A DNA stretch of 64,000 nt from Prevotella sp. ne3005 (GTDB taxonomy: Bacteria; Bacteroidota; Bacteroidia; Bacteroidales; Bacteroidaceae), in contig NZ_FOCK01000001.1 in NCBI RefSeq assembly GCF_900110085.1, positions 248,001 to 312,000 on the forward strand, in the 5' to 3' direction. This document shows, piece after piece, positions 41,393-57,771 of the stretch. Each line of letters begins with the position of its first letter. Within the stretch, counting starts at the first letter, position 1. Made by a program: the position numbers and the translations under genes. The notes beneath the pieces are model-generated. The model worked only from the letters and a program-made list of their open reading frames with translations, did no database searches and was not told the origin of the DNA.

Positions 41393-43816
41393 TTAGTTAT
41401 CTTTCTCGACATAAGTGAAGGAAGTGTTACCGATAGTGAAGTGGCGGCCGTGATAGAGCCACACTTCTTTGCCGATGGGCAGCGGCTTGTCATTGTCGAC
41501 ATAGACACCATTCTCCAAGGCGATGAGGCGCATGCTGCCCACGTACTGACGTATCTCGGCCTGTACGGCTGCCACATTGCCGTTGAGGTCCCATGACAGC
41601 TGTAGGCTGCAGTCGACAGACTTACCGATAGTGACCACATGGTCGGGTGAGGTACGCATCCACTTGTAGAGGGCGACATCCATCTCCTTGACGGCCCCCT
41701 CGATATGCAGGAAGTAACGCTCCGACCTCGGAGCCACACGGGCGATACTCACAGCAATACAGACCGCATAGGTAATGAAACTCATCAACAATGCCACACG
41801 GTAGTCGAGGAAAGAGTAGGTATAGACCACCGACCAAATGAACATGGAAAGGAAACCGATGATACAGGCAGCCACCAGGAACACTTTCTCAATTCGGGTA
41901 CGCGTTGCATATGTGATGGCAAACATGATAACCCAGCTCATCAGTGCCCAGGGAATCCAGTCGACCAGGAACGAGTTGGAATCCAGATGTAAGGCGATGG
42001 GGATAATACTACCCACGACACAGCAGAAAAAGCTGGCTATACCAGCCAATATGGCACGAATCACCATCTCAAGGATGCGCAGATGCCACTGGCGGCGACG
42101 GATAGTGAGGAACGACAGGAACAGCGTGACATAGAAGCTGACATAGAGGCCAAAAGCAGGCAGATAAGTCAGACGTGAGCCATACTCTGCCACGGAGAGT
42201 TCGGCCTCCTTGGTACCATCCTTCAAACCATTGATCAAGAGCACGATGCGTTCTACAATATAGGTCGACACCGGATGATCCAATATAGTGTATAAGAACC
42301 AAGCCACGAAGCCAGAAACGATGGCCACGAATATCCACTTCAAATAGAAAAGGGCATTACGCGAGTCGTAGATATTCTTACTATTGTAATAGTGAGAGCC
42401 TTCCTTGCAGTGACGGCCATGCTCCGGACAATGGTACTCGTTCTCATCCCAGCATTGTTTGTGCATGGTGTGCTTACACTTGGTGACAATCTCATCACCC
42501 TCTACGAAAGGAGCCTTACAGAGGTAACAGGTCTCTGCCACCATCTGGCCCCCAAAGCTCATCTTGTTGCCTCCATAAACGTTCACATATTTGCGTTTGA
42601 AGATCTGATAGCGGATATAGGGCTCCAATAGCTGGAACACCAACCACGTCACCAATAACAGTACAAACAGTACGATAAATCCTTGGATAATCACATCGAG
42701 CGTGGAACCGCCATTGACAATGATAGGTGCATAGACGCTACCCAGATAGAAGAAGGTAGAGCCCGTCACGATCAGATCGTTATTAGTGACATCACGGAAA
42801 GTAAGCTGGAGGTTATGGCGATTGCCACGGAACACCTTATTGTCAGGCTGCTCAAGCGTGATGATATAATTGGAATAGTTGACATTGAAGTCCTTCATGA
42901 TGTCATCTTCAATCTCGGGCCAGTTGAACTCTCCCTGCCACAAACCATTCATATCCTTACAGAAGTATTGCATGATATTGGCATCGGCCTGTTTGCCCGG
43001 CACCATGAAGAGAGAGTCTTGGTTCGTGGTGCTCTTCTCTGCGAAGTTGGAATAGTAGGCCAACAGCTGTCCCCTGCCCTCCTTCACCTTATCAGCCAAC
43101 TGTTGCTGCATCTCAAAGTGTTTGGGGTCGATAGGTTGGTCACCATCGTAGGTCTTACCGCCTGAAAGGATGAGCATCACCTTATAACGGGCGCTGCCCA
43201 GCACGGTAGACTTATCCTGAAGTTCAGAGAACTTGGTCAGTATCGAGCGATAGAGATAGGTATAGTCTGGATCATGATGCACGAAATAGTTATTGATCAC
43301 ATAGTCAGTGGCCTGATAGGTCTCCGACACATTGTCGCCCTGCATGAAAGAAAGGAAGAGGTTTTGATCGCCAAAGAGGGTTCTGATCTCACGTACGGCA
43401 TCGCGCTCCTCGTCGACGAGCGACTGAGGCAGGCTGAGGTCGACGAGAACGAGCAGGCGCATCTTGAGCTTGGCCACCTGCTCCCGGCTGACATTCGTGA
43501 CACCGGTAACGACGGGTTGGGTCTCCTGTCTGGTCTGTCCGGAGATGAGTTTCACCTCTTGCTGCACATCGACATTCACCATGGCAGAATCCGTGAGGTC
43601 ATAGGTTCCAACATCGTGCAGCAGACGGGCTGACACGGTCATCACCTTATAATCGTCGGAGAACTTTATATCATGTATCTGAAGGCCTTCGCCCGAAACC
43701 ACCACGGAGTCCTCAGGCGACATCAAATCGTCGATATTGGGAACGCTCTGTTCATCGCAGGCCGCCGCTCCAAGAGCGACACCTACAGCCAATAACCATT
43801 TATATACCTTATTCAT
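41393..43816 (-). CDS. tssR: TssR-like T6SS-iii membrane protein with vWA, RING-H2-like and FHA-like domains
   Basis: 807 aa. Lipoprotein signal with lipobox GAAAC (Cys20). About 115-350 is a vWA-like domain (KLKMRLLVLVDLSLP, then KVMLILSGG). A first membrane helix (375-397) precedes a zinc-ligand pattern: Cys430-x2-Cys433, Cys447-x-His449, His452-x2-Cys455, Cys463-x2-His466, the RING-H2 arrangement with His as last ligand. Six further helices lie between 491 and 694, and an FHA-like domain is at about 725-805 (VVTIGKSVDCSLQL, ENGVYVDNDKPL), lacking the usual Ser-x-x-His. Seven helices with a periplasmic vWA put the RING and FHA domains in the cytoplasm. vWA-bearing TssR is specific to T6SS-iii. 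It lies downstream of the E2-Ubl genes in the same run and is an E3 candidate (inference). Confidence 0.78.
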   Translation of the reverse strand: MNKVYKWLLAVGVALGAAACDEQSVPNIDDLMSPEDSVVVSGEGLQIHDIKFSDDYKVMTVSARLLHDVGTYDLTDSAMVNVDVQQEVKLISGQTRQETQPVVTGVTNVSREQVAKLKMRLLVLVDLSLPQSLVDEERDAVREIRTLFGDQNLFLSFMQGDNVSETYQATDYVINNYFVHHDPDYTYLYRSILTKFSELQDKSTVLGSARYKVMLILSGGKTYDGDQPIDPKHFEMQQQLADKVKEGRGQLLAYYSNFAEKSTTNQDSLFMVPGKQADANIMQYFCKDMNGLWQGEFNWPEIEDDIMKDFNVNYSNYIITLEQPDNKVFRGNRHNLQLTFRDVTNNDLIVTGSTFFYLGSVYAPIIVNGGSTLDVIIQGFIVLFVLLLVTWLVFQLLEPYIRYQIFKRKYVNVYGGNKMSFGGQMVAETCYLCKAPFVEGDEIVTKCKHTMHKQCWDENEYHCPEHGRHCKEGSHYYNSKNIYDSRNALFYLKWIFVAIVSGFVAWFLYTILDHPVSTYIVERIVLLINGLKDGTKEAELSVAEYGSRLTYLPAFGLYVSFYVTLFLSFLTIRRRQWHLRILEMVIRAILAGIASFFCCVVGSIIPIALHLDSNSFLVDWIPWALMSWVIMFAITYATRTRIEKVFLVAACIIGFLSMFIWSVVYTYSFLDYRVALLMSFITYAVCIAVSIARVAPRSERYFLHIEGAVKEMDVALYKWMRTSPDHVVTIGKSVDCSLQLSWDLNGNVAAVQAEIRQYVGSMRLIALENGVYVDNDKPLPIGKEVWLYHGRHFTIGNTSFTYVEKDN

Positions 43817-43845: not shown

Positions 43846-44724
43846 TTATATCGTCGGGTAGTCACGCTGCCCCATCATACTTTCTTTCAACTTCTTAGCC
43901 TGATCTCGGGCAGCCTTGATCTGCTTCAGCTTCTGGGCAAACAGGTTGAAGAACATCATTAGGATGGCCACTGCCGCCAAGCCAATCAGATAATCCTTGA
44001 TACGCTGGATAAAGGGTTTGTAGACCATCTCCTGTATCTTCGTCGAGACGCTCTGCAACTCAATAAACTTCTTTTCCATGCCCTTCATGCGCACCTCTAA
44101 TCCCGGGAAAGCCTCTGCCGCCTCTTTAGCCTGCGCAAAGAGGGTCTGGGCCTCGGTAAAGATATTGGCCTCCTCAGCCTTCACCTTTTCCAGTTGGGAG
44201 GCCAGCTTCGGTGACAGCGAATATTTCGTCGCATCCTGATAGAGCTTACGGTATTTCTTGTCCTGTCCCCAAATAAAACGCTCAGCCTTTGAGAAGGTAG
44301 ACAACTGCTCATATTGTTGCTGACGCACAGTCAGGGTGTCGGTCACTATCTGTTGCATCTGCTGGATCTGTGCCACCTTATTGAGCAAAGAGTCATTGTC
44401 GGCGACATACACCTGCTGAGCCTGGGAATAAGTGTTCCATCTGACGGAGAAGGAGTTGAGGGCATTCGACAACGAGTTCAGACGATTGGAAACAGCATCA
44501 AGCAACGAGGCATTGAGTGGCATCTCTAAATCGATGTTCATCTGGAAGCGACTGAGAGCATAGAGCTGGTTCAGTTCTTCCTCAAACAAAAGCATGCGCT
44601 CCTGAATGTCCATGTAGGTGGACTCCAAGTCCTCCTCAGCAGGCGCTGCGGACTCCTGAGCCCCAGCCACTAGCGGCATCAGGGTCAGAAAGGCCATGAG
44701 TAGCATACTTCTTATTCTTATCAT
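43846..44724 (-). CDS. Periplasmic coiled-coil protein with C-terminal membrane helix (T6SS-associated)
   Basis: 292 aa from ATG 44724, which overlaps the upstream stop (TGATG); the in-frame TTG at 44736 is less likely. Signal peptide MIRIRSMLLMAFLTLMPLVAGA, then long helical, glutamine-rich coiled-coil segments (about 35-245), then one membrane helix (IKDYLIGLAAVAILMMFFNLF) near residue 260 and a short basic cytoplasmic tail. Probably an inner-membrane-anchored periplasmic structural or regulatory subunit. It stands where T6SS-iii loci carry poorly characterised envelope genes, but I cannot assign it to TssN, O, P or Q. Confidence 0.65.
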   Translation of the reverse strand: MIRIRSMLLMAFLTLMPLVAGAQESAAPAEEDLESTYMDIQERMLLFEEELNQLYALSRFQMNIDLEMPLNASLLDAVSNRLNSLSNALNSFSVRWNTYSQAQQVYVADNDSLLNKVAQIQQMQQIVTDTLTVRQQQYEQLSTFSKAERFIWGQDKKYRKLYQDATKYSLSPKLASQLEKVKAEEANIFTEAQTLFAQAKEAAEAFPGLEVRMKGMEKKFIELQSVSTKIQEMVYKPFIQRIKDYLIGLAAVAILMMFFNLFAQKLKQIKAARDQAKKLKESMMGQRDYPTI

Positions 44725-45920
44725 CACTTCTGACAATTCTTCCTAAAATATTGTTCTGCCTCACGGAACACCGACAGAGCATGACGCTGTTCTGCGCTAT
44801 AGACGCCCATGGACTTTACTGAGGCATTGACTTCCTTGATTGTTCCCTCACACTGGAGGATGATATCGCGCCGCTCGATGGGATCGCTGGAGAGCAACCA
44901 ACGAGCCACGGCAGCATCTATCTGACGAGCCTTCGACAGTAATGACTTCGCATTGACACCACTGCCACCGGCACCGCCGCCACCTTCAGAACCGCCCAAC
45001 ACACATTTCATGTTGGCAATAGAGTCGGCATAAGCATTATAGTCGTCCAACGCCTTCTGCAGATCGGGACAAGCGCTCTGTTCGTCCTTACGCGGGAACT
45101 GCTTGACAAGCAGATCCTTCAGGTCCTGGAACAACTTCAAACTCTCCTGATTGGTAGCGATGCCATTGGGGAATTTACTATGAAGATTATTATAACTCTT
45201 CTGGATGCCTTCCAGCGCTGTTGTGGCCGAGGCGATCTCTTCATCCAGGCCGAAACAGGGATTACGCTGGATATCTACATGATACTCCATATAGAGGTCG
45301 CGGCCAAAGCGTATCTCATACTCTTTCTTATTCGGTTTCTTGCTGACATCATCCATCAGGAGCACGTCACGAAGGCGAACCACGACAGAAGAGCGTTTGT
45401 TCATAATGTCAAACGTCTGGGTAATATAGTCATTAACCATTGCATACTCCTGTGGTGCAGGCTGGAGGCCCTCATAGTCTATCCAGCGATGGAACACATA
45501 CTGACTACGGGGCTTGGGGACCGTACTCCTGAAGAGTTTGGAGAAACGGTATTTTTCTTTCGGGTCGAAGGTTACCACATACGGCAGTAAGTCTGGGCGT
45601 ATGGTACGGCCCTTGATGGTGGGCTTGAAACGAGTATCCTCACGGAATACGAAGATATTACGATAGGAGATCAGGCTGACGGTCAGCTGATTGGCAGCCT
45701 CATCGAACACGAACTTGACCATGATGTCCTTGTCGGTAGCATCATCGTCGAGACTGATGTGGTCAGTAAAGGCCTGCCCCTGACTGACGGTCACATTCCT
45801 GACTGTCTGAGCGGAAGAAGTGAGAAGAGAGGAATGGAAAGTGAAAAGTACTACCAGTACTTTCGCAATCCACCAGTCTTTCACACCATACGTTATTTTA
45901 TATCTCATATATCTTTTCAT
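44724..45920 (-). CDS. Periplasmic protein of unknown function in the T6SS run
   Basis: 398 aa. Basic N-terminus and signal segment (IAKVLVVLFTFHSSLLTSSAQ), then an N-terminal beta-rich domain (about 40-150) and helical C-terminal region containing a flexible GGGGAGG linker near residue 320. Two or more in-frame ATGs exist at the start; ATG 45920 overlaps the E2-like gene stop (ATGA), so translation is coupled. Part of the signal segment is encoded by degenerate seven-base units (45819-45846). No known domain was recognised. It is presumably an envelope-side partner of the secretion machine. Confidence 0.6.
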   Translation of the reverse strand: MKRYMRYKITYGVKDWWIAKVLVVLFTFHSSLLTSSAQTVRNVTVSQGQAFTDHISLDDDATDKDIMVKFVFDEAANQLTVSLISYRNIFVFREDTRFKPTIKGRTIRPDLLPYVVTFDPKEKYRFSKLFRSTVPKPRSQYVFHRWIDYEGLQPAPQEYAMVNDYITQTFDIMNKRSSVVVRLRDVLLMDDVSKKPNKKEYEIRFGRDLYMEYHVDIQRNPCFGLDEEIASATTALEGIQKSYNNLHSKFPNGIATNQESLKLFQDLKDLLVKQFPRKDEQSACPDLQKALDDYNAYADSIANMKCVLGGSEGGGGAGGSGVNAKSLLSKARQIDAAVARWLLSSDPIERRDIILQCEGTIKEVNASVKSMGVYSAEQRHALSVFREAEQYFRKNCQK

Positions 45921-45934
45921 TTTTCACTTTTCAC
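45914..45934. repeat. Three TTTTCAY heptamers at the E2/periplasmic-protein junction
   Basis: TTTTCAT, TTTTCAC, TTTTCAC. The repeat encodes the C-terminal residues of the E2-like protein (EVKSEK), its stop, and the start ATG of the next gene. Confidence 0.8.
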
Positions 45935-46519
45935 TTCATCACTATCAAAGTAAATCCATTCATTGGGTTCACCCTGACGGATAACCCAGGAGGCCACCTT
46001 CAGGTCCTCGGGGTAAGGTGGTTCCGAGACAGCGTGATAGACGTCGTAGCGCAGATAATGGGCCACGCGCTCCACTCCCCATACGAGGTCGGTATAGGTG
46101 TCGGCCATATTGATGCACACCCGCCCGGCAAAGTCACCGAACCAACGGATGTTCGGATGCCATGGATGCGGAATGGGATTCCCCTCTTCGTCATGGGTCA
46201 GGAAACGGAACACTGCCGGACTGTCCACGGAGGGATAACCCTCAGGGATGTCTATACGCATCTGGAAACCTGTGGCGAAGACAGGGGCATGGGTGACACC
46301 CCGCTCACCGAAATGTGCCAGATTGCTGACACCGCAGATACTCCGGAGCTGATAGCTGACCAGATAGCCTACGGGCAGTCCGTCGGCATTGCGACGGACA
46401 ACCTGTAGCTGGATGTCGCGTCTGTTCTCCAAATGCTCCTCCAGCTTTCGCCACTCGTTCAACAGGCGTCTGTTGCGCCCGATGAACTTCCGGTCGGCAT
46501 ATCGTTCACTTTCTCTCAT
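45917..46519 (-). CDS. E2 ubiquitin-conjugating enzyme-like protein in T6SS-iii locus
   Basis: 200 aa. The order of elements is that of an E2 (UBC) fold: N-terminal helix (NRRLLNEWRKLEEHLENR, about 16-33), beta-meander (about 37-105), IPEGYPSVDSPAVFRF like the E2 YPxxPP segment, then HPWHPNIRWFG with His121-Pro122-Asn123 (the oxyanion HPN motif) and GRVCINM with Cys135 12 residues after Asn123 as expected for the catalytic cysteine. Trp147 matches the conserved post-cysteine Trp. Its ATG overlaps the Ubl stop (ATGA) and its stop overlaps the next ATG, so it is translated within the T6SS run. It should carry the Ubl as a thioester received from the E1 encoded at 51044-52180. Assignment is by motif, not by a search. 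Confidence 0.82.
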   Translation of the reverse strand: MRESERYADRKFIGRNRRLLNEWRKLEEHLENRRDIQLQVVRRNADGLPVGYLVSYQLRSICGVSNLAHFGERGVTHAPVFATGFQMRIDIPEGYPSVDSPAVFRFLTHDEEGNPIPHPWHPNIRWFGDFAGRVCINMADTYTDLVWGVERVAHYLRYDVYHAVSEPPYPEDLKVASWVIRQGEPNEWIYFDSDEVKSEK

Positions 46520-46833
46520 CCCGGAAACGGATCTGGCATTAAGAACACTTTGTCACCATTCTGCACGTTATAGTCGGCCAGTGTCTGGTCGTTACGGCCG
46601 ATACGCGGACGAAGCACTCGGATTTCATGAATCTCCGGGTCCTCACGTCCGAAGAAGTAGTCGAGCGGCGCTCCCGTTTCATCAATCGACGGGAAATCGA
46701 AGATCAGACGACCGTCACTGCCTACGGCATGACGTAGATTGTTCATCAGCGTCGACAACGGGGCCTCTGGGTTGATCACCTTAAACCTCACCGTCTTGTT
46801 CTTATAAACTATATCTAAAAAGAATTCATCCAT
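46516..46833 (-). CDS. Ubiquitin-like beta-grasp protein ending in Gly, T6SS-associated
   Basis: 105 aa. The ends resemble ubiquitin: an N-terminal hairpin (FFLDIVYKNKTVRFKVI), a helix (LSTLMNNLRHAV) and a C-terminal section TLADYNVQNGDKVFLM that lines up with ubiquitin TLSDYNIQKESTLHLV. An extra loop of about 25 residues (PLDYFFGREDPEIHEI region) explains the length above 76 aa. The protein ends PDPFPG, so its C-terminal residue is Gly and no protease maturation would be required for activation. Encoded directly before the E2-like gene with a 4-bp overlap and 21 bp after TssF. Likely the modifier conjugated by the E1 and E2 of this run (inference). Confidence 0.8.
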   Translation of the reverse strand: MDEFFLDIVYKNKTVRFKVINPEAPLSTLMNNLRHAVGSDGRLIFDFPSIDETGAPLDYFFGREDPEIHEIRVLRPRIGRNDQTLADYNVQNGDKVFLMPDPFPG

Positions 46834-46854
46834 ATAGCATGATAGGTTTTATGT

Positions 46855-48558
46855 TTACTTAATCTGAATACTCACAAGAATAGGATAGATGTTGGTACTT
46901 CTCACCTCAATCATCTTCTGCAGCAGGATCTCTACCTGCGGAATCTTATCGGCAAAGCTGCGCTTCACGAAAGAGTTGTCGGCCAAGAGAATCTCCACGA
47001 CGATTTCATAACCACAGTCACGATAGTCCATCTGCTGACGACGCCGCACACTGATGTCGCTGACCATGTCACGAACGATACCATAGCGCGACAGGAGTTC
47101 GTTGTAACAGAATATCTTAATGTCGGCAGGTGTCACAATACGGTCGTTAGTGGCCAGGTAATAGCGCGACAGACTGGCCAGCGCGCCTTCTTCACGGATT
47201 TCATCGCTACCCAATACCGGGCTGGCAATCTGATGTGTCTCGGCGGCATTAAAGCCTGTAGGCACAGTAAACGTGCTGCTGGCATTGAGAGAGGCATTCA
47301 CATTGGCACCAGCAGTCGTCATGTAGTTTATATCCACACTGCCACCACCTGCTCGCATGGCATTCATCTCACGCAACAGGATATAAACACCAGGCAACTG
47401 GCGCAGTTTGTCTTTCTGGGCAGCATCCAACAGTCGTGCCAGAATCTCCTGCAACGCCTGAATGGTCTTATCGCCCGAGATGCCCTTCAGGTCTTGGAAG
47501 GCGTAATAGTCAGAATGATATTTCGCTATCAGGGCGTGCAGCAGACGAACCAGCTGTCCCTGGTTGAAACGGTCAGCTGCCACGCGACGTACCTCCACGA
47601 GGCTGTTGCCGTAGATCTGCTCTTCCGGTGGGCGAATGGCATGCAGGAACTGCTGTCCGCCCTGAGTGTCCTGGCTGTCGTATCCCGCCACACGGGCTAA
47701 AGGCGAGGCTGCCGAGAGCGTCACTGTGTGCATCTGCGCATTGGCTAGCAATACGGTGTTCAGAGAGAAGTTTTCCTTATCAAACTGGAACTTGTCGCTG
47801 ATACCCATAAACTCAAACAGCAGGTCGACGGTCTCCATCTCTGTTGGCAACAGCTTGCCTGCAGCATGAGGCTTCACACAGAAGATCCGGATGTTCTGAC
47901 GGGCAAAGAGGTCGAGACAGGAGGCCTGCGCCTGATAGGTCAGTGAACGGTTATAGAGGATCGTATCCAGGCCGAAGCACTCCGACATCGGGAGGTCGGC
48001 AAAATCCCAGGGCTTGACCAAGGGAACAGGTTGTCCCTTGATGGTCACTTTCAGATCCTGGAAGTTCATATTGCGCACGGCAAAGGACAGGCCCGATATC
48101 TCGCTGACTGGCGACTTGAACTGCAGGCTCACCTTCCAACGGCGGCCATCCATCCTGACGATGGAACGCACCCTAGCATTCATCACCCTGGTGTGCAGCA
48201 CAGGAATAAACACATGGTTGGTACCTGCAAGCGTAAACTCGTTCTGGGGCGTCATGTCCACCTCATGTATCGTATCCTGCAAGGCCGTTTCCAACACTAC
48301 CGTAGCAGGTACAGCATGTCCCACCTCATAAGGTGTCAGCAGATGAGCGTACTCCTCGAGCACTTCGGTCTTCAGCATTTCCATATCGCCTACAGCCTCA
48401 TTCATCTGATAGGCCAATGCTGTCAACATCAGCGAGAGCACCGGGTCGGTCTCCAGACCTTCCAGGAAATCATTCATGTCGCTCTGCCGCCAGATATTGA
48501 TGGCTTCACGCATTAACTCATCGGCTCGTTGCCTGGTCTCAAATATTGTTTGTTTCAT
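46855..48558 (-). CDS. tssF: T6SS baseplate subunit TssF
   Basis: 567 aa. TssF-like: an N-terminal helical region (about 1-75, FLEGLETDPVLSLMLTAL) with the A-H-L-L-TPYE segment, central beta-rich wing domains, and C-terminal RIVTPADIKIFCYNELLSRYG followed by an ending typical of gp6-like baseplate wedge proteins. TssF binds TssG and TssE to form the baseplate wedge around the VgrG spike. Placed between tssE and the Ubl gene. Length agrees with the family. Confidence 0.85.
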   Translation of the reverse strand: MKQTIFETRQRADELMREAINIWRQSDMNDFLEGLETDPVLSLMLTALAYQMNEAVGDMEMLKTEVLEEYAHLLTPYEVGHAVPATVVLETALQDTIHEVDMTPQNEFTLAGTNHVFIPVLHTRVMNARVRSIVRMDGRRWKVSLQFKSPVSEISGLSFAVRNMNFQDLKVTIKGQPVPLVKPWDFADLPMSECFGLDTILYNRSLTYQAQASCLDLFARQNIRIFCVKPHAAGKLLPTEMETVDLLFEFMGISDKFQFDKENFSLNTVLLANAQMHTVTLSAASPLARVAGYDSQDTQGGQQFLHAIRPPEEQIYGNSLVEVRRVAADRFNQGQLVRLLHALIAKYHSDYYAFQDLKGISGDKTIQALQEILARLLDAAQKDKLRQLPGVYILLREMNAMRAGGGSVDINYMTTAGANVNASLNASSTFTVPTGFNAAETHQIASPVLGSDEIREEGALASLSRYYLATNDRIVTPADIKIFCYNELLSRYGIVRDMVSDISVRRRQQMDYRDCGYEIVVEILLADNSFVKRSFADKIPQVEILLQKMIEVRSTNIYPILVSIQIK

Positions 48559-48560
48559 GC

Positions 48561-48581
48561 TTTAATCTTCAATTTTCAATC
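48561..48581. repeat. Heptamer repeat between tssE and tssF
   Basis: TTTAATC, TTCAATT, TTCAATC in the 27-bp gap. Confidence 0.8.
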
Positions 48582-48585
48582 ATCA

Positions 48586-49041
48586 TCAGTTCCAGACTCT
48601 GATTGTCTGTTTGTAGACATAATTCTCCTTTGTACTTACAATCACCCCTTTGACAGTAATATATATCTGCCGTTCCTCACGGATGTATGTCATCGATACA
48701 GCCACATCTTCCAAACGGCGCTCATATTTCAGAACCGACTCCTTCAGTTCGGAAGCGAAGGTGTTGATACTCTTCGACGAACCGGAGATCTTCTTGTCGT
48801 AGATGCCCTGCAGGTCGTCCATGGACTTGGTATCACCTGAATCGTAGACCACGCCTTCATTCTCGTTGAAGATCTCGAAACGCAGGTTGTTGAACACAAA
48901 TCCGAACTGCGGGTCGGCAGGTGTACTGAACTGTGGCGTTGTCAGAATCAGGAATATCGACGCATCCAGAGACTTCTTCAGTTTCTCTTCTCTCGCGAGT
49001 CCTTTTGGACTCACACGTAGTGGCAAGCTAAGACTGGTCAT
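48586..49041 (-). CDS. tssE: T6SS baseplate subunit TssE (gp25-like)
   Basis: 151 aa from ATG 49041; a GTG at 49047 is also in frame and would lie one base after the tssK stop. GPW/gp25 fold: hydrophobic strand FLILTTPQFSTPADPQFGFVF, helix and the C-terminal strands (RQIYITVKGVIVSTKENYVY). TssE initiates sheath assembly with the TssF/TssG wedge. Divergent from proteobacterial TssE, as is usual for T6SS-iii. Confidence 0.8.
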   Translation of the reverse strand: MTSLSLPLRVSPKGLAREEKLKKSLDASIFLILTTPQFSTPADPQFGFVFNNLRFEIFNENEGVVYDSGDTKSMDDLQGIYDKKISGSSKSINTFASELKESVLKYERRLEDVAVSMTYIREERQIYITVKGVIVSTKENYVYKQTIRVWN

Positions 49042-49048
49042 AAGCACA

Positions 49049-50251
49049 TCAGATTAGCGGTATATACTCTTTCTCCTCAGGCTCCGGCACGTAAAGGGCA
49101 TTGAACAGATGGTCGAACATGTTGAAATAGAGTTTCTCATAGAGCGACTCTGAGAGATCCTTGCCCAACTGATCGAACTTCTGGTTCAACGAAACGCTGA
49201 GCTGGGTCATGCGATTGTCCATCTCCGATCCCAACTGTTCCATAATGGCAGCCTTAAGATTATTATTGATATAGTTGGTGAGCGACTCGGTCTGCTGCTG
49301 CATCTCGGCGCGCAATTCCTCCTTCATGTCGGCCAACAGCTTTGCTATCAGCTCTGGATGCAGCTGGGAATACAGTTCGGCCTTAGCCTGTGCCAGCAGA
49401 GCCTCGTAGTCGATGGTGTTATCTTCTAGCACCACACCGTCGAGGATGACGGCGGCACCGGCCAGATAGTCGTCGAGCCACTGCAGCCAGATCTGGATAT
49501 CGGTATATGACGGCAGCGGCACATCCGTGGGCTGCTCCCTGTTGGGGGTGACGATATAATAGTCGATGGCCTGCGCAATCTCCTGGGTCAGCAAGACGAA
49601 GTCCTGCATACTGTTCTGTAGGTTATAGCCCTTCAGACGGAACACATAACGGAGTAATGTCCGCTTACCTTCTCCATCGGCAAGGCTCTTGTGGGATGCC
49701 AGGATGAACAGCTTATCCACATACCTTTCGATATAGTCCAAAAAGCGCAGGTCGGCAGACAGTAGCAGGCAGGGCGGAATAAACTCCGTATCCATGGAGA
49801 ACACACCGTCGGTGACCTTAAACCTCAACAGGGGGAACAGGTCATTGGCCTCAATATCTTCCATGGTAGAGATACCATAGACATAATGCGGGCGAACGTA
49901 CGGCACCCCATCCATCTCGTACTCCGTCAGTTCTTCGCCGAAACCTACAGTCAGGTAATAGCGCTCACCGAAGAGCATAGGAATCGTGACTTGCACATCC
50001 TCGTCGGCACTGACAATCCTGCCTGATGCCAGGAGCGCCAGACACTGAAGGTGGTCAACTTCGAAACGGTTCTTTACAAAGATACCGTTACAGTTGAAGA
50101 CCGACTCGGGCAAGAGTCCCATCCTATTGTTACCAAGAGCTGCACGCAGGGATAACCTGTACTTGTAGTTCCAGTTCTCGGCCATCCCGAGGAAGGTCTC
50201 CGCAGTGACCTCCATGCCCGGCATCCAGTTGATTCTCGAGTTGATATCCAT
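49049..50251 (-). CDS. tssK: T6SS baseplate subunit TssK
   Basis: 400 aa. N-terminal INWMPGMEVTAETFLGMAENW corresponds to the start of TssK (W-x-x-GM-x-v-x-x-x-x-F), followed by shoulder and neck-like beta domains and helical regions; residues of about 300-390 are long amphipathic helix (LLADMKEELRAEMQQQTESL). TssK links the baseplate to the membrane complex. It overlaps none of its neighbours but is only 4 bp from the tssG-like gene and 7 bp or less from tssE. Confidence 0.85.
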   Translation of the reverse strand: MDINSRINWMPGMEVTAETFLGMAENWNYKYRLSLRAALGNNRMGLLPESVFNCNGIFVKNRFEVDHLQCLALLASGRIVSADEDVQVTIPMLFGERYYLTVGFGEELTEYEMDGVPYVRPHYVYGISTMEDIEANDLFPLLRFKVTDGVFSMDTEFIPPCLLLSADLRFLDYIERYVDKLFILASHKSLADGEGKRTLLRYVFRLKGYNLQNSMQDFVLLTQEIAQAIDYYIVTPNREQPTDVPLPSYTDIQIWLQWLDDYLAGAAVILDGVVLEDNTIDYEALLAQAKAELYSQLHPELIAKLLADMKEELRAEMQQQTESLTNYINNNLKAAIMEQLGSEMDNRMTQLSVSLNQKFDQLGKDLSESLYEKLYFNMFDHLFNALYVPEPEEKEYIPLI

Positions 50252-50255
50252 ATCG

Positions 50256-51047
50256 TCATTCGTTTTTTAATTCCATATTATAGCCCAAAGTCAGACGGGT
50301 GTTCACCTGCTGCTCTGAATGATGTTCCTTAATCAGTATGTCGCACTTCACCTCGAAGGGGATGAACCACTCGCAGATGAATTCGCGCAAAGGCTGCAAC
50401 GCTGTATTCAGCGACCTGAACTCTTCAGGCGACAGACCGGGAATGAGTAGCTCATACCTGATGCGAGGCAGCCAGCGGAGCGTCGTGTCCGTCTGACTGT
50501 AGCGGCCTGTCATCGTATTCACCTTGCAATGGAGCAGCGCACCCAATAGCGCGCCAACATATCCGAAGTTCCCACGCATCCTGCTCACATAGGGCAGCAT
50601 GAGCGCAGCCTCTTTCACCAGCGGGCTCTCCACCTCGTCCAGATTAATGCCGAAATACTCTTTCAGAATATACGACAGTTTGTTCTGCAGGAGTTCCGAC
50701 ACCTGACGCTCCACATACAGGCGCTGTCGGAAGGCAGTTGTATCGATAGGCAGAAACGCCTCGTTCAACAGTCGGATGCGGCGCTGTATCTTCTTGAACT
50801 TCTCGGCGGCATCCTCTCCCCTCAGGTCATTGTCGTTGTTGATGACACCCTGCGGCAACAGGTTCAGGAAGGTGTCGCGCGCCAGCCATGCCTCCATCGT
50901 CTCATCATCGAAATCAAGGAGGTCATTATTATAGTTGCGGTAGAAAGAGCCTTCACCATGGGCAATCCACTTCCGTTCCACCTCCGGATAGAGGTAGTTC
51001 AGCAGCATCTCTGCACTGGCTTCAGATATTTTGTTTCTTTGTCTCAT
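50256..51047 (-). CDS. tssG: Probable T6SS baseplate subunit TssG
   Basis: 263 aa. The position next to tssK and the gp53/TssG-like features (an N-terminal helical stretch, YVSRMRGNFGYVGALLGALLHC core and SLNTALQPLREFICEWFIPF near the C-terminus) support TssG of the T6SS-iii type. No distinctive catalytic motifs, as expected. Its ATG overlaps the E1 gene stop (ATGA), so E1 and baseplate translation are coupled. The call rests partly on gene order. Confidence 0.65.
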   Translation of the reverse strand: MRQRNKISEASAEMLLNYLYPEVERKWIAHGEGSFYRNYNNDLLDFDDETMEAWLARDTFLNLLPQGVINNDNDLRGEDAAEKFKKIQRRIRLLNEAFLPIDTTAFRQRLYVERQVSELLQNKLSYILKEYFGINLDEVESPLVKEAALMLPYVSRMRGNFGYVGALLGALLHCKVNTMTGRYSQTDTTLRWLPRIRYELLIPGLSPEEFRSLNTALQPLREFICEWFIPFEVKCDILIKEHHSEQQVNTRLTLGYNMELKNE

Positions 51048-52180
51048 GCTTCTTCCATTTCAAAATAATAATCACCCGCTCCGGTTGACACATGCAGTAC
51101 ATCATGGGGCGGCAAGCCCAGTTCTGCAAGCGTCAGTTCCTGATAGGGGAACGAGCGGTCGACATGACGATACTCGTGCTGGTAGAGTCCGCTCAAGGGG
51201 ACGCCCTGTAGGGTCTTATCCCGTGCGGTGACCTCCTCCACAGCCCTTCCGGGACACATCACCGTAGTGCGCTCGTCATTGTCGCGCCGCGCCACGTAGT
51301 CCACGTAACAGTCCCGTGTCAGACAGAGCGTCACATCCTGCGTTTCCAACTCCTGCGACAGTTTCCGGAGTGCTTCTGCCACGCTGTCGGTGGGCATCAC
51401 ACGGCACGGTTTGACAGGCGTCCACGGCTCATGTTCGGCACAGTCGTCATCATAGGCGGCAAAGTCAGCGATGCGGGTCGTCAGATGTTCCCCGTCGTAA
51501 TACAGCATCTTCCCACAGAGGGAGGTCAGCCTGCCGGCCTCCAGTTCCTCACGGTGGATCAGTTTCAGTGCCTCCTGCACCTGTACGGCTCCGATCACCG
51601 AAGCCACGATAGAGGTGGTGGGTGCCGACCCTGCCTGTTCCTGCCGGCGGATGATGCCCGAGCAGGGCATGCGCCTCGCCAGATCCTTCAGGCCCTCAGG
51701 TCCGAGGTTGCAGGCGTAGCAGTTCTTTCCCGGCATAAACACACGGGCCGTTCCTTCCAGACCGTCGATGCCGCCGTCTACCCAAGGGATGCCTGCCCGC
51801 ATACAGAGGCGGTTGATGCAGTAACGTGCCCAACGGCTGTCGACACAGCCGATGACCACATCCATCTGGCGGACCAGTCCCAGTCCGACATCATAGGCGA
51901 TGTCGCCACAGACGGTCCATACCTCCATGGCCGGATTCATGGCCACCAGGCGCTCTGCCACCACGTCGACCTTCAGGCGACGGGCCTCGGCATCAGCCTC
52001 GGTGAAAAGGACAGAACGGGAGAGGTTACCCATCTCCACCACATCGAAGTCGACAGCCACGATGTGCTCCACGCCCATCAGCACTAGATTCTTCAGTACC
52101 TCGTTTCCCAAGGCACCGCAGCCAACCACCATCACACGGGCGGACTGAATCAGGCTCTGACTGAAGCAACTGTCCTTCAT
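51044..52180 (-). CDS. E1-like Ubl-activating enzyme (ThiF/MoeB fold) in T6SS-iii locus
   Basis: 378 aa. Adenylation domain: VVGCGALGNEVLKNL (Gly20, Gly22, Gly25), VDFDVVEMGNLSRSVLF with Asp44, Asp46, Asn52 and Arg55, Lys70 and VIGCVDSRWAR with Asp114, all as in E1/MoeB enzymes. GKNCYACNLG supplies a Cys154/Cys157 zinc pair, probably completed by Cys247 and His250, and Cys173 in RRMPCSGI occupies the position of the E1 catalytic cysteine. The C-terminal 100 residues (LTLAELGLPPHDVLHVS near the end) could be a ubiquitin-fold domain for E2 recruitment. It lies 2 bp after the PEGA gene stop and overlaps the tssG-like ATG. It should activate the Ubl of this run (inference). Confidence 0.83.
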   Translation of the reverse strand: MKDSCFSQSLIQSARVMVVGCGALGNEVLKNLVLMGVEHIVAVDFDVVEMGNLSRSVLFTEADAEARRLKVDVVAERLVAMNPAMEVWTVCGDIAYDVGLGLVRQMDVVIGCVDSRWARYCINRLCMRAGIPWVDGGIDGLEGTARVFMPGKNCYACNLGPEGLKDLARRMPCSGIIRRQEQAGSAPTTSIVASVIGAVQVQEALKLIHREELEAGRLTSLCGKMLYYDGEHLTTRIADFAAYDDDCAEHEPWTPVKPCRVMPTDSVAEALRKLSQELETQDVTLCLTRDCYVDYVARRDNDERTTVMCPGRAVEEVTARDKTLQGVPLSGLYQHEYRHVDRSFPYQELTLAELGLPPHDVLHVSTGAGDYYFEMEEA

Positions 52181-52182
52181 CC

Positions 52183-53535
52183 TTATATCTTCTTCATTTT
52201 AATATTCACGTCGACCATATCGTTGCCGATCACCTGCACCATGGTCTCACTGTCGCGGAAGCCATCCTTCGTCAGCTTCACCTTACAGTTCATACCCGCA
52301 GGGAGGTTCTCGACCACCAGGGGCGTAACCCCTTTCAGGGCACCGTTGATATAGACCTTCGCACCAATCTCCTCACTGTGGATATTGAGCAGGCCATAGT
52401 TGGTCATCGGCGGGAGCAGCTCAAGCTTCTTCGGCGTCTCATCGTCGATCCAGACAGCCGTCGTCCGCGACTCCAGACCATCCTTCTCGGTGCTCACCTG
52501 ATAATAGCCCAATGGCAACTGCCCTTCCCAGGTGCCGTAGCCCATGAGCTCACGGTTCACCCAGATGGCCGTACTGTCGTCGGGGGCCACAATCGTCACA
52601 GGCGCCTTCTTCACGACGGCAGCCACGCTCACGGAGTCGGTGACCTGCGTAGAGTCGGTGGCCACCACTGGCAGACTGGCCATCAAGGGCACCCTACCCT
52701 CATGACTCGTCACGCGCGGATAGAGATCCGAGGCAGCCAGTTCTATCTGTTTCTTCTCTGCCCTACCGATGGTCACCATGCCCTCGTAGTAGCACTGCTG
52801 ACCGACCATCACCGTCAGGCGGTGACTGCCCTCCAGCAGATGTCCGCTCGTAGCCTCGTGGTTGCCTATCCACTGACCGTCGACCATGATACGCCCCTCG
52901 TCCAGGGGGGTCTTCACGGTAAGATAGGAATAGAACGGCTTCAGGGCCACCGGCACGATGAGCCGCGCCGTGTCGGAGAGTTCAAAGCTGTCGACCACCT
53001 CTTCGTGGAAAGGGGCCTCCACCTTATAGGGGTGTGTGCCCACCGACAGATTGAACTGGCAGATGCCCGTACGAACCGCCGTCGTCACACTGTCTATGGT
53101 GACGATGGCATCCTTAGGCTGTATTTCAAAGATCACCCACTGCTTCTGCAGCTTATATGACTTGGTAGGACTGAAGGTCAGCAAGTTGGCCTCATAGTGC
53201 TGTTTCTTCCGAAGGCCCTTCTTTCCCGGCACCTTCCAGGTGTACTGACCATAGTCCGGATGACTGATCACCAGAAACGTGGTCTTGTCGGGCGTCTTCA
53301 GCGACAGTGCACCGTCGGCCTCCTCTGCCTGCACCTCTTCCTTTCCGTTGGCAAGAAACTTAAAGCCTTTCTCGCCTGTCTTCATGTCAATAGTGGCCAA
53401 CTGCTTGTCGGTCTTCACATGATTCATGTTGAACGGTCCTTTCTTCTGCTTGGAAAACCGTTCCACGCGCATCTGCTGCGCACTTACAGTGAGTGCCAGC
53501 ACCAGCAGCCCAACTATCGACAGCCACCGTTTCAC
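52183..53535 (-). CDS. PEGA-domain periplasmic protein in the T6SS run
   Basis: 450 aa. Signal peptide (MKRWLSIVGLLVLALTVSA), then beta-rich domains. Three PEGA-like repeats: IMVDGQWIGNHEATSGHLLEG, IWVNRELMGYGTWEGQLPLGYY, and the C-terminal VYINGALKGVTPLVVENLPAG. PEGA domains occur in surface-layer or envelope proteins and usually mediate binding. Its ATG overlaps the PAAR-like gene stop (ATGA), and the E1 gene starts 2 bp after its end. Its role in the secretion machine is not known. Confidence 0.78.
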   Translation of the reverse strand: MKRWLSIVGLLVLALTVSAQQMRVERFSKQKKGPFNMNHVKTDKQLATIDMKTGEKGFKFLANGKEEVQAEEADGALSLKTPDKTTFLVISHPDYGQYTWKVPGKKGLRKKQHYEANLLTFSPTKSYKLQKQWVIFEIQPKDAIVTIDSVTTAVRTGICQFNLSVGTHPYKVEAPFHEEVVDSFELSDTARLIVPVALKPFYSYLTVKTPLDEGRIMVDGQWIGNHEATSGHLLEGSHRLTVMVGQQCYYEGMVTIGRAEKKQIELAASDLYPRVTSHEGRVPLMASLPVVATDSTQVTDSVSVAAVVKKAPVTIVAPDDSTAIWVNRELMGYGTWEGQLPLGYYQVSTEKDGLESRTTAVWIDDETPKKLELLPPMTNYGLLNIHSEEIGAKVYINGALKGVTPLVVENLPAGMNCKVKLTKDGFRDSETMVQVIGNDMVDVNIKMKKI

Positions 53536-53921
53536 TTACCCTGCGTCGTCATACTGCCACTGGGGTTAGTAACCGATATCTGACCGCCCCAGTTACACAT
53601 GCACTTGGCATTGTTGATAAGTGCCGGCATATTCATCACTTTCACCTGACCACCGGGCGTCCAAGGGGCTGCTATCACAGGGATGCAAGGCATCGGCGTG
53701 AGCACACCCATGGCTGCAGCTGTGGCTGAAGCCACCGTCGGGTTGGCCATCGACTGGCACATACCGAAAGGCATGATGTTAACCATCGGAATATTATCCA
53801 TAATGTTGGCCATCAACATATTGCCACATTTGGGACGAAGGGGCACGATGACGTTCAGCGTCGAAGGTGCCATCCCAAAAGAACACTGGAGCATTGCTCC
53901 CTGACATACGAAATTTCCCAT
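53532..53921 (-). CDS. PAAR-like (DUF4280) spike-tip protein
   Basis: 129 aa. Starts MGNFVCQGAMLQCSFG as in DUF4280 proteins and has regularly placed cysteines (CGN, MCQSM, MPCIP, KCMCNWGG). PAAR and PAAR-like proteins form the conical tip on VgrG and can bind metal and effectors. Cytoplasmic; no signal peptide. Its start is followed on the other side by a 22-bp tandem repeat. Confidence 0.85.
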   Translation of the reverse strand: MGNFVCQGAMLQCSFGMAPSTLNVIVPLRPKCGNMLMANIMDNIPMVNIMPFGMCQSMANPTVASATAAAMGVLTPMPCIPVIAAPWTPGGQVKVMNMPALINNAKCMCNWGGQISVTNPSGSMTTQGK

Positions 53922-55012: not shown

Positions 55013-55720
55013 TTATTCATCCTCCTGATTGATGTTGAACGCCTGACCCGCATTCTCTCCACGGGCAGCCGCTTTCTCGTCGGCAGCCGTCTGCTTTTCA
55101 GCCTGCTCCTTCAGATAGCGCTGATAAGCCTCCTCAATCTCTTTCAGCTTGGCATCTTTATACTGGAGACATATCTCGTCATGCTTATTATAGATTTCCT
55201 CCAGCTTATCCTCAGCCTCCTTAGCATCTTCTTTTGAACTGCCCAATAACTTGGTTGTCAGACGAGACTTATAGATAGTATGGTTAGCATCAAGCTTTGC
55301 CTTACACTGGTCGTAAAGCATACCTACTCCATCGGTCAATGAATCATGACGGTCCTTGTTGACCTCTGGCATAGTACAGAGAAGATACTTGTTTTCATCT
55401 TCACCAGAATCATTACTATTTTCCTCTGACTTAACATCTATCTTGAACTCCGGATGAGCATGTTTAATGCCCTTGCTGATGGCAAAGACCATCTTCGAAT
55501 CATGTGGGTAGATTGCAAACTGATAGTCGTTGGCCAAACATGCTGAGGCCACGCTCTCAAGATCCTTCTCTTCTCCTTCTTCATCGATGACAGAGATTGC
55601 CAAAAGAGCTGCAGGCTCTGCTTTTATGCAAAGATTCATAAACCGATACTGCAACAAGACGGCGTAACCGCTCATCTTGGTCTTCATCTCACCAATCAGG
55701 GTTTCTATACTCTTTTTCAT
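55013..55720 (-). CDS. Cytoplasmic helical protein of unknown function in the T6SS run
   Basis: 235 aa, no signal peptide. N-terminal mixed region (about 1-90), acidic central loop (EENSNDSGEDENK), and a long charged coiled coil from about 150 to 215 (AEDKLEEIYNKHDEICLQYK), then a Gly/Ala/Glu-rich tail. Its position beside the VgrG and repeat-protein genes suggests a chaperone or effector-linked role; this is a guess from context. Confidence 0.55.
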   Translation of the reverse strand: MKKSIETLIGEMKTKMSGYAVLLQYRFMNLCIKAEPAALLAISVIDEEGEEKDLESVASACLANDYQFAIYPHDSKMVFAISKGIKHAHPEFKIDVKSEENSNDSGEDENKYLLCTMPEVNKDRHDSLTDGVGMLYDQCKAKLDANHTIYKSRLTTKLLGSSKEDAKEAEDKLEEIYNKHDEICLQYKDAKLKEIEEAYQRYLKEQAEKQTAADEKAAARGENAGQAFNINQEDE

Positions 55721-55755
55721 TGCTCACTTATCACTATTCATTTTTCACTATTCAT
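55721..55755. repeat. Five heptamers of the TnnTCAY type between two T6SS genes
   Basis: TGCTCAC, TTATCAC, TATTCAT, TTTTCAC, TATTCAT. The last two run into the stop codon of the 55748-57760 gene. Confidence 0.8.
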
Positions 55756-57760
55756 TATTGTCTCCTTCCTCGTCATCCTTAGGCAGTTCCACATCCTTCG
55801 CCTTAGGCGCATCAGCCTCTTTCAACTTGGCACTGAGCTTAGCCGATGACGGAGCACCAGGCACAGCAATACCGTCGCTGATGTTCTTGCTCTTGAACGA
55901 GGTCTTGGCCTCCACGTTGTCGGCCGTCAGTTTCGTCATGGTGGTATCAGCCTTGAAGTCGGTCTTGCCGTTCACGGTGTTATCACCATAAAACTCTGCC
56001 TTCGAACCACTGATGGCCACATTGCCACCATCGAGCTGTACCACAGCTTTGGCCTCACCCTGTTGCATCTCGGCAGTCGTCTTACCGTAGATACCCGTCT
56101 TGTCGGCAGATACCAACAGCTCCTTAGCCTGGTTGTCTGCATCGGTACGTCCGATATACATCTTCTCAGCCAACAGTGTCAGGCTACTGCCTTCTGCCAT
56201 ATTCTTATCAGTCAGTTTCTCCGCATCCACGTCGGTAGCTTTCACATACACATCCTTGGCATCAAGACTGATCTGACCCTTTGCCTTGCCTTCCTTGTCG
56301 ATGGCAGCAACACTAGCCAATTCGGTAACGAGTGTGAACTGACCCGTGGCGTTCTTATCCTTGTCGGTAGAAGATAGAGCCATATTCTGTGCCTGAACTG
56401 TGAAGGTACCTGTAGTATTCTTATCTTTATCAATAGATCCGAACTTCGTGTCGGCTGCATAGACAGAAAACTGACCCGTTGTATTTCCGTCCTTATCTTG
56501 TGAGAGCAAATCTATATTTTCTGCACGAATACTAACACTACTCTCAGACGCTTGATCTTTTTCTTCCAGTTCACCATCCTTGATGTCGTAGTCAACTGCC
56601 ACAACACTAAAGTCCTTCGTTTCTATAAATACAGAACCGCCAGAAGTGACACTTCCATTCGTCTCATCGGTCATTTCCGTATTAGCTGTCGATATTGACA
56701 ACGACTCAGTGTTGAACGAGATACTGCTATCTGCTATCAATGTTCCATCAACATTGAGGGTATCAGCACTCATGTGACGAGCCTGCATATGGATGGATGA
56801 CTCATCATTCGTACGGATATTACCATCTCCATCAACAGACGAGAATAGCATCTGTTCGGCATTCACTGTGAGACGTGTACCCGTTGTCTTATCCGTAAAT
56901 TCCGACTTGGCATTATCCACATCTGTCTGCTCAGCCTCCAAAGCTGTAATACGCCTATTAGTTTCAGCTAAACGGGAGAGAGTATCGATACAGTTGGTTA
57001 CAGCATTATAGAGAGCCGGTATCATTCCTTCGTACTGGTTCTGTAGTTCAACCAGGTCTACAAGATTTGACCTGATATCCAACTCCCCATCCTTCAGGTC
57101 TTCCTCCGACTTCAGAATATCCTCCACGTCAGAAATGATACTGTTCACCTGCTTCATCTTTGCAGAAGCCTCAGAGTTCAAATCAGACTTGACACTTTTC
57201 AAGTCGCTCAACTTATCAGAGATAGAGTTACCCCGGTTCTCCACTGACTTGGTGGCACTAATTTCTATCGTGTCATCGGCATGGATGCGCACACCAGCAC
57301 CTCCAGAAACTGGGGCTTCTGAAAAATAACCATTGGATTCGTTACTCTGAAGGACGATATTACGGGCTTGACTAACCACTTGCGAATGAGGCCATACGAC
57401 CTCTTCCACGCCATCAGGTCCCGGATCAACGGCTATCTGTGAAATAAAGGGTGCACGACTTGTCACAGTTCCTGTTTCACCGGTACCTTCCAAACTCACG
57501 TTGCCACCTCTGACCACGACGGCTCCGCCATCGCCCCAGAGAGTACCACTTTTATCCACATCACCGATAATGATCTCAGGCGCAGAAATCACAATCCGCT
57601 TGTCATCACGGAAATACTTGCCTTCAGCCAGCCGGTTGAAGATATCTATCTTGATCTGTTGCACCTCTGCCTTCTGCTTGCGTATCTCTTCCAGATCCTT
57701 CTCAACGCAATCCTGCAGGTTCTGAAGCGCTTCCTTCCAATCACTGAATACTGTATCCAT
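55748..57760 (-). CDS. Large repeat-rich protein downstream of vgrG
   Basis: 670 aa from ATG 57760; an in-frame GTG at 57766 is close and less likely. N-terminal helix (ALQNLQDCVEKDLEEIRKQK), a beta region (residues 60-170), a coiled coil (about 180-290) and a C-terminal series of repeats of roughly 25-30 residues with D-x-D-x-x-x-TG-x-F motifs (DKDGNTTGQFSVYA, DKDKNTTGTFTVQA, DKDKNATGQFTLVT, DKEGKAKGQISLDA). The repeats suggest a beta-solenoid. The last 60 residues are charged. With VgrG 5 bp upstream, it could be a spike-extension or effector-associated protein; no toxin motif was recognised. Confidence 0.6.
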   Translation of the reverse strand: MDTVFSDWKEALQNLQDCVEKDLEEIRKQKAEVQQIKIDIFNRLAEGKYFRDDKRIVISAPEIIIGDVDKSGTLWGDGGAVVVRGGNVSLEGTGETGTVTSRAPFISQIAVDPGPDGVEEVVWPHSQVVSQARNIVLQSNESNGYFSEAPVSGGAGVRIHADDTIEISATKSVENRGNSISDKLSDLKSVKSDLNSEASAKMKQVNSIISDVEDILKSEEDLKDGELDIRSNLVDLVELQNQYEGMIPALYNAVTNCIDTLSRLAETNRRITALEAEQTDVDNAKSEFTDKTTGTRLTVNAEQMLFSSVDGDGNIRTNDESSIHMQARHMSADTLNVDGTLIADSSISFNTESLSISTANTEMTDETNGSVTSGGSVFIETKDFSVVAVDYDIKDGELEEKDQASESSVSIRAENIDLLSQDKDGNTTGQFSVYAADTKFGSIDKDKNTTGTFTVQAQNMALSSTDKDKNATGQFTLVTELASVAAIDKEGKAKGQISLDAKDVYVKATDVDAEKLTDKNMAEGSSLTLLAEKMYIGRTDADNQAKELLVSADKTGIYGKTTAEMQQGEAKAVVQLDGGNVAISGSKAEFYGDNTVNGKTDFKADTTMTKLTADNVEAKTSFKSKNISDGIAVPGAPSSAKLSAKLKEADAPKAKDVELPKDDEEGDNNE

Positions 57761-57771
57761 AGTCACATCTT

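Follow-up and report, generated by a model that had tools for sequence, protein, structure and literature searches.

A candidate ubiquitin-like conjugation cassette with a predicted membrane RING protein in the core operon of a type VI secretion system subtype

Why should the operon of an injection machine carry genes for a complete ubiquitin-like conjugation pathway? The question is raised by a stretch of 64,000 nucleotides of Prevotella sp. ne3005 (contig NZ_FOCK01000001.1, positions 248,001 to 312,000; here, the window), in which genes for a ubiquitin-like protein (Ubl), an activating enzyme (E1), a conjugating enzyme (E2) and a RING protein that is a candidate ligase (E3) lie among structural genes of a type VI secretion system of subtype iii (T6SS-iii). 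An initial annotation had pointed to a Ubl ending in Gly, an E2 with an HPN motif and a following Cys, and an E1, all interleaved with tssK, tssE, tssF and tssG. Every open reading frame (ORF) it named was found at its place, all on the minus strand. Its core claim of a full Ubl, E2, E1 and RING set within a T6SS-iii operon is supported by the Ubl and E2 folds, the catalytic and zinc-binding residues, the gene order and the co-occurrence described below. On balance, we think it somewhat more likely than not that in this subtype the four proteins form a ligase whose targets are parts of the injection machine.

The conserved core comprises ten genes: E1 (51044-52180, 378 residues), the baseplate genes TssG (50256-51047), TssK (49049-50251), TssE (gp25-like, 48586-49047) and TssF (46855-48558), Ubl (46516-46833, 105 residues), E2 (45917-46519, 200 residues), two genes here called g44724 (44724-45920) and g43846 (43846-44736), and the RING protein (41393-43816, 807 residues). 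The Ubl ends in PFPG, the codon of its last Gly (46519-46521) being followed by the stop. The cluster to which they belong encodes TssC (PF17541, 3.1e-101) and TssD (PF17642, 3.2e-23), both above cut-off, and is therefore a T6SS-iii. TssE is recognized by PF04965 (8.8e-7, above cut-off), and TssK by a weak match to TIGR03353 (2.4e-5, below cut-off) and by orthologues in loci of the TssN type, which are treated below. Neither TssG nor TssF has a meaningful Pfam match of its own; they were assigned through TssN-type orthologues, found for TssG with a family hidden Markov model (HMM), one of which matches PF06996 (8.9e-6) in the case of TssG and PF05947 (1.9e-9) in that of TssF.

Pfam sees little in the new genes: above cut-off are ThiF in the E1 (PF00899, 2.2e-50) and FHA in the RING protein (PF00498, 2.2e-4), and below it UQ_con (1.3e-3), Rad60-SLD (1.1e-3) and zf-RING_2 (1.9e-3). 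The AlphaFold2 model of the Ubl (predicted local distance difference test, pLDDT, 91.7; predicted template modelling score, pTM, 0.80) matches ubiquitin, SUMO, EccD and talin F0 in a structure search. The protein thus combines the beta-grasp fold and the C-terminal Gly of Ubl modifiers, a fold that also occurs in domains that are not conjugated. For the E2 model (pLDDT 85.0, pTM 0.83), all 26 Foldseek matches at E <= 0.001 and all 50 listed VIA rows were E2s or E2 complexes; its modelled UBC fold, its HPN (residues 121-123, 46151-46159) and its predicted catalytic Cys135 (46115-46117) place it among the E2s. The ubiquitin fold and the E2 fold, on which the initial annotation hung, are therefore both present in the models. 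The E1 belongs to the ThiF/E1 superfamily, with an adenylation domain that carries the ATP-binding motif GCGALGN, a zinc site made of the pairs C154xxC157 and C247xxH250, and Cys173 (codon 51662-51664). By sequence, its closest counterparts in the PDB are E1s of eukaryotes (UBA7 2e-21, SAE2 1.7e-20). We also considered its C-terminal domain as a ubiquitin-fold domain, for which the aligned residues 253-378 gave no convincing PDB match by sequence.

The conservation of these features was followed in close relatives. For this, E2 peptide patterns were run against 84,980 species genomes. They hit 131 candidate stretches and yielded 120 relatives; the 80 best loci were retained, all of them close relatives selected by their E2. 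The Ubl ends exactly in Gly in all 80 (PFPG in 66, PIPG in 14), as it does in all of the 120 closest listed of 1132 database homologues. In the E2, H121, P122 and N123 are invariant in 81 of 81 rows, and so is C135; HPN formed part of the scan patterns, and therefore it is C135 that provides the independent test of E2 conservation. Of 727 E2 homologues, 120 were listed, and 119 of these have the HPN..C arrangement. The exception, P0003, is a homologue without the stretch that holds the active-site Cys. The ATP motif of the E1, C154xxC157, C173 and C247xxH250 are invariant or almost so over 75-76 rows, and position and conservation make Cys173 the likely catalytic Cys.

The RING protein is less easily classified. 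It has a lipobox-like Cys20, a vWA region, a transmembrane (TM) segment, the RING (42407-42529; C430, C433, C447, H449, H452, C455, C463, C470), further TM segments and an FHA domain (41429-41635). The vWA region was recognized through a homologue, L146:305-2725 (fetched loci carry L-numbers and genomes G-numbers, G000 being the window genome), in which Pfam sees the domain and which hhalign aligns to the RING-protein family with 99.8% over residues 35-773. The TM segments come from hydropathy only, which suggests a topology with the vWA region in the periplasm and RING and FHA in the cytosol. The initial annotation had noticed a RING-H2-like motif here, and indeed 75 of 76 ORFs keep the eight-ligand pattern, while the remaining one is truncated at a contig end. 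Searched against the PDB, a RING profile retrieves RING E3s (best 2.2e-4), and the eight zinc ligands stand in the order of RING E3s, with the last pair spaced more widely. Such spacing is a reported trait of prokaryotic RINGs (PMC11354881). By its sequence, then, the protein is a candidate E3 and membrane hub. The label "TssR-like" given to the same ORF is not supported, as neither hhalign nor the HMMs showed profile similarity to TssR. A weak match of the RING-protein HMM (2e-3) in a TssN-type locus, L111:18095-18955, appears by eye to be an unrelated lipoprotein.

The two genes between E2 and RING protein may belong to the same membrane assembly. Both g44724 and g43846 have a signal-like N-terminus, followed in the latter by a helical region and a C-terminal hydrophobic stretch. 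No Pfam match was obtained for g44724, nor a profile match to TssN, R, P, O or Q, and none above cut-off in Pfam for g43846. The former is likely a periplasmic part of a membrane complex and the latter likely another part of one. In three loci (L019:5645-8974, L024:11803-15078, L033:11725-14922) g43846 and the RING protein share one open frame; such natural fusions suggest a joint function of the two proteins.

Across the 80 loci, the order E1-TssG-TssK-TssE-TssF-Ubl-E2-g44724-g43846-RING showed no violation of order or strand. All ten genes are visible in 71 loci, the other nine being cut by contig ends. Ubl, E2 and TssF were seen in all 80, g44724 in 79 (the remaining locus is cut), g43846 (four loci cut) and the RING protein in 76 each, and E1 in 75. 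One locus, L089, has a gene of the type found at 52183 in the window inserted between TssF and Ubl. This unbroken order, together with the Ubl and E2 models, excludes a chance neighbourhood. The 4-bp start-stop overlaps that had been taken to join these genes do occur at three window junctions (E1/TssG, Ubl/E2 and E2/next gene), but the others have short gaps or a 13-bp overlap; among the fetched loci, the overlap is common at E1/TssG (56/75) and rare at Ubl/E2 (11/80) and E2/next gene (10/79).

Divergence was compared in the window and 70 loci, with all ten genes at 85% of length or more. The Ubl has the highest mean identity of the core (0.78), followed by E2 (0.60), E1 (0.59) and the others (0.38-0.52). 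Distances of E1, E2 and Ubl correlate with those of TssG, TssK, TssE and TssF at 0.69-0.88, values in which shared descent is not controlled for. Conserved lysines were considered as possible acceptors: in the close loci only TssE K85/K86 and TssK K196 are Lys in at least 95%, and comparison with divergent and other T6SS loci shows no specificity for any of them.

How general is the association? We surveyed 393 genomes of the order Bacteroidales. PF05943 was discarded as a TssC marker, since it matches 0 of the 393 and is the wrong family for Bacteroidota, and a purpose-built TssC profile was used instead. This profile matches 20 genomes, 17 of them at full length, one as a contig-edge fragment (G273) and two marginally (G187, G342). 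The E2 profile matches six of the 393; TssN (PF17555) is above cut-off in eight, and in 14 at E <= 0.001. Among the 17, the E2 was found in five (G000, G388, G046, G178, G242), TssN in seven (G019, G100, G144, G250, G285, G287, G308) and, with the flanks read, neither in three (G258, G247, G331), while G270 and G239 are on contigs too short to judge. No genome of the 17 has both E2 and TssN, a disjointness that by itself is weak because the numbers are small. Co-occurrence of the three cascade genes with T6SS-iii thus holds for a subset of these systems, and the genes also occur in three genomes without a T6SS-iii TssC match, discussed below. In one of the genomes with neither type, G258, which is of the window genome's family, inspection by eye shows, in the flank of the T6SS-iii (L131), FHA-like proteins and a pair of genes resembling Ser/Thr kinases, which may represent a third control scheme.

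The difference between the two types is seen more clearly in the loci themselves and extends to the membrane complex. PF17555 has no match in the window genome, and HMMs of TssN, R, P, O and Q gave 0 matches in the T6SS loci with the cassette (Ub-type loci); the same HMMs recover the TssN-type loci of origin, the TssO, P, Q and R models being built from 2-3 sequences each. Ub-type proteins aligned with TssNQOPR by hhalign scored 0.1-0.4%, with controls at 97.5-100%. Conversely, the TssN-type stretches L106-L119 gave no E1, E2 or Ubl match. The canonical TssNQOPR complex was therefore not found in Ub-type loci, and, as judged from sequence, the cassette marks a T6SS-iii subtype without recognizable TssN, O, P, Q or R, although g44724 and g43846 may be remote counterparts of some of its members. 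We also considered the Ubl as a homologue of the TssN beta-grasp domain, a relation that hhalign did not find in runs with or without controls. Among 443 detected T6SS-iii, tssN and tssP were near-ubiquitous (Bongiovanni et al., PMC10781749). Therefore, the Ub-type subtype likely fell outside the search models of that paper.

The other Ub-type systems of the survey are divergent, with gene orders unlike that of the window. In G388, G178 and G046, Ubl, E2, RING protein and E1 all lie with T6SS genes; G242 has Ubl, E2 and T6SS genes on a contig that stops where, by the order of L122, the others would fall. The four Ubls end in IAG and three of them have about 30% identity; all four E2s keep HPN..C, and the RING ligands are retained in L120, L122 and L127. 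The initial annotation had seen no JAB protease in the window. This holds for the whole window genome, in which neither PF14464 nor PF01398 has a match, but a JAB/JAMM gene directly precedes the RING gene in four divergent loci (L120:11609-13720, L122:12798-14441, L127:1824-4781, L128:5008-7641). PF01398 is above cut-off in L122 (7.9e-5) and L128 (1.7e-8) and below it in L127 (0.0048), and Prok-JAB is below cut-off in L120 (0.002). In all four, HSHP or HTHP precedes an S and a D to give the JAMM motif, also present in L146 and L148, and the four proteins share a basic C-terminal tail (..WTRRKR-like). An HMM built from the four finds no such protein in the ORFs of L011-L090. Present in divergent and not in close loci, the JAMM gene was therefore lost in the close type or gained in the divergent type. 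A strong Prok-JAB match (1e-13) in G388 (C3:94164-94496, L144) lies on a contig separate from its T6SS.

Relatives of the cassette occur outside T6SS-iii. A phylum-wide sample of 395 genomes, searched with a wide E2 profile, gave matches in G000, G456 and G550. In G456, G550 and G016, the TssC profile, for which the 393-genome survey served as positive control, has no match. All three encode E1, E2, Ubl (read by eye from the frame in G016), a JAMM ORF, a vWA/FHA-type protein and a phage-sheath gene. The structural genes of an extracellular contractile injection system (eCIS; sheath, tube, Pvc16, gp25 and spike) are some 20 kb away from the cassette in G456, with eCIS_core and PAAR genes between them. 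In G550, the sheath is about 43 kb away on the same contig, and in the fragmented assembly of G016 it is on another contig. Since G456 and G550 are of the same genus and form one lineage, the eCIS link has a single clear case behind it. In these two genomes (L145-L148, L153-L156), genes for an nSTAND1 NTPase, an ion channel and PAAR adjoin the cassette, and the vWA/FHA protein lacks the RING ligand pattern, in place of which it has DPIT.. and a Cys cluster, a stretch that may be U-box-like; in G016 the RING is retained. The Gly is followed by extra residues in two of seven divergent Ubls, by four in that of G016 and by GK in that of G550, and both genomes have a JAMM ORF.

How might the cascade work? 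The E1 would adenylate the C-terminal Gly of the Ubl, take it onto Cys173 and hand it to Cys135 of the E2. The RING protein, with its putative periplasmic vWA region, several TM helices and cytosolic RING and FHA domains, would be membrane-complex hub and E3 together, directing the Ubl onto a subunit of the baseplate or membrane complex, perhaps on a phospho-signal read by the FHA domain; conjugation to such T6SS parts is what we predict. In the T6SS-iii of B. fragilis GA3, the cytosolic domain of TssN recruits TssK (PMC10781749), and the modification may license baseplate docking in the role that this beta-grasp domain plays there. In divergent members, the JAMM protease might trim the Ubl precursor or remove the tag. 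A bolder version, to which we give somewhat less than even credence, is that the docking hub is itself a ubiquitin ligase which tags the baseplate to license docking and firing and replaces TssNQOPR, and that the cassette of Ubl, E1, E2, JAMM and membrane protein, shared by T6SS-iii and eCIS, is a general control module of contractile injection systems.

Other explanations have to be weighed against a ligase acting on the machine. The cascade could tag cargo or incoming proteins, marking effectors for loading or modifying the toxins of neighbours. Delivery is the feature common to the two unlike injection systems near which cassette relatives lie, and in G456 it is PAAR and eCIS_core genes that separate eCIS and cassette. 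However, in the 80 loci the four genes have baseplate and likely membrane genes as their neighbours and stand apart from the variable VgrG and effector regions, and the distances of the cascade proteins follow those of the baseplate genes, so that we find this unlikely. Slightly less likely still is a defence or stress module that is placed in the operon for the sake of co-regulation, its targets being proteins of phage or others of the cell. Ubiquitin-like conjugation in cyclic-oligonucleotide-based antiphage signalling systems (CBASS) has an anti-phage role (PMC10097602). The Bil conjugation system has such a role too, and the cassette occurs without a T6SS-iii TssC in three genomes, with an nSTAND1 NTPase adjoining it in G456. 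Yet in the 80 loci it is never separate from TssF, nor from TssG, TssK and TssE where the contig extends, and as Ub-type systems have no recognizable TssNQOPR, the membrane genes of the operon are likely needed for injection.

It is also conceivable that nothing is ligated. ThiF-family E1s often serve sulfur carriers, and this one might make a thiocarboxylate, or the Ubl might be a non-covalent scaffold like the EccD Ubl domains of type VII secretion systems, as the Ubl model fits the EccD5 Ubl equally well as ubiquitin. The HPN and invariant Cys of the E2, the RING, the JAMM in divergent loci and the free Gly end all indicate ligation, which makes this reading quite improbable. That the genes are accidental neighbours or hitch-hikers on a T6SS element might be suggested by the different gene order in G388 and the other divergent loci and by the occurrence of the cassette elsewhere. 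With the order unbroken in 80 loci and a linkage that survives rearrangement in the divergent ones, however, this is exceedingly improbable.

A ligase built into the injection machine would differ from the systems already described. Bacterial ubiquitin-like conjugation is known mainly from anti-phage defence. Burroughs, Iyer and Aravind reportedly predicted, in 2011, prokaryotic E1-E2-RING-Ubl systems with JAMM, which the divergent loci resemble; we know of no prokaryotic RING E3 system that is part of a contractile injection machine, and unlike in those known, the RING here lies within a vWA/TM/FHA protein. An E1/E2/RING cascade is also reported in archaea (PMC5654768). Like the T6SS-iii of B. 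fragilis GA3, the Ub-type system has homologues of TssB, C, D, E, F, G and K, ClpV and VgrG; unlike it, a free Ubl, E1, E2 and a RING/FHA protein were found and no TssN, O, P, Q or R. Points of resemblance on the B. fragilis side are a vWA-like domain in TssR, which is a lipoprotein, and, in TssN, TM helices together with a cytosolic domain of ubiquitin fold (PMC10781749).

BilABCD likewise has Ubl, E1 and E2 within one operon, but its Ubl has two domains, its E1 an inactive and an active adenylation domain, and its four genes include a JAB and, in the sections used of that paper, no named RING (PMC11354881). The T6SS cassette encodes one Ubl of 105 residues, an E1 of 378 residues in which ThiF occurs once, and a RING, while JAMM is limited to divergent members; it is not a Bil system. 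Operons in Iyer et al. 2006 also bring Ubl, E1-like and E2-like genes into a shared neighbourhood, type 6d including B. thetaiotaomicron, but the E2s of 6d and of the preceding row lack the classical His, whereas the T6SS-cassette E2 keeps HPN; the sections of this paper used here mention no T6SS link (PMC1779556). CBASS shares E1 and E2 domains and has a JAB, with E1 and E2 fused in Cap2, no separate Ubl or E3 known from the sections used, and a cGAS-like enzyme as the protein acted upon (PMC10097602). Here, E1 and E2 each have a gene of their own, five others lying in between, and the window genome lacks a JAB, which sets the cassette apart from Cap2/Cap3. An E2 and a RING in the same core likewise separate it from sulfur-carrier pairs of the ThiS/MoaD kind, which have an E1-like enzyme and a Ubl without E2 or E3. 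Among the matches listed in open-licence literature, we found no text linking Ubl cascades with T6SS or eCIS, which does not imply absence from print. Bacterial Ubl cascades are known already (PMC1779556, PMC11354881, PMC10097602), and what appears to be new is a cascade fixed in a T6SS-iii operon.

All cascade genes, including a candidate membrane RING E3, being fixed in the operon of a secretion machine in 80 loci points to a likely role in the assembly or control of a nanomachine, and the cassette supplies a membrane-complex candidate for T6SS-iii without TssNQOPR. Xylanibacter ruminicola D31d, Mediterranea massiliensis Marseille-P2645T and Bacteroides mediterraneensis An793 are among the carriers in which a bacterial E1-E2-E3 cascade could be dissected, Hcp secretion and killing being its measurable readouts. 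The cassette also bears on the origin of the eukaryotic E1-E2-RING-JAMM set.

Upstream of the E1 and on the same strand lie further T6SS genes. A 450-residue gene (52183-53535), present in 64 of the 80 loci, differs in place and strand and is outside the fixed core. Farther upstream are a DUF4280 gene (53532-53921; PF14107, 3.2e-31), whose product we take to be a PAAR-like tip, and VgrG (57772-61671; PF04717, OB domain, 1.3e-19; TIGR01646 3.1e-20, below cut-off). Past the window edge come two Hcp genes, TssC, TssB and ClpV, the latter with AAA_2/ClpB domains above cut-off and TIGR03345 (2.4e-148) under its cut-off. Upstream of the same T6SS cluster in L003 (10562-17649), a second VgrG was seen by eye, with genes resembling 55013-55720 and 55748-57766. 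The TssP HMM matches L146 (6e-13) and L148 (1e-11) on the eCIS side, outside any T6SS-iii, perhaps just through a common PKD-type domain. In G016 (L128, L149), the cassette is followed by SrfB and Virul_Fac genes, the latter presumably SrfC-like, and a second JAMM ORF is present (L149:4924-5790). A second ThiF-family gene of the window (14413-15093, plus strand; G000:C8:262413-263093; 130.8 bits), distant from the T6SS, probably encodes a housekeeping enzyme of the ThiF/MoeB/TcdA type.

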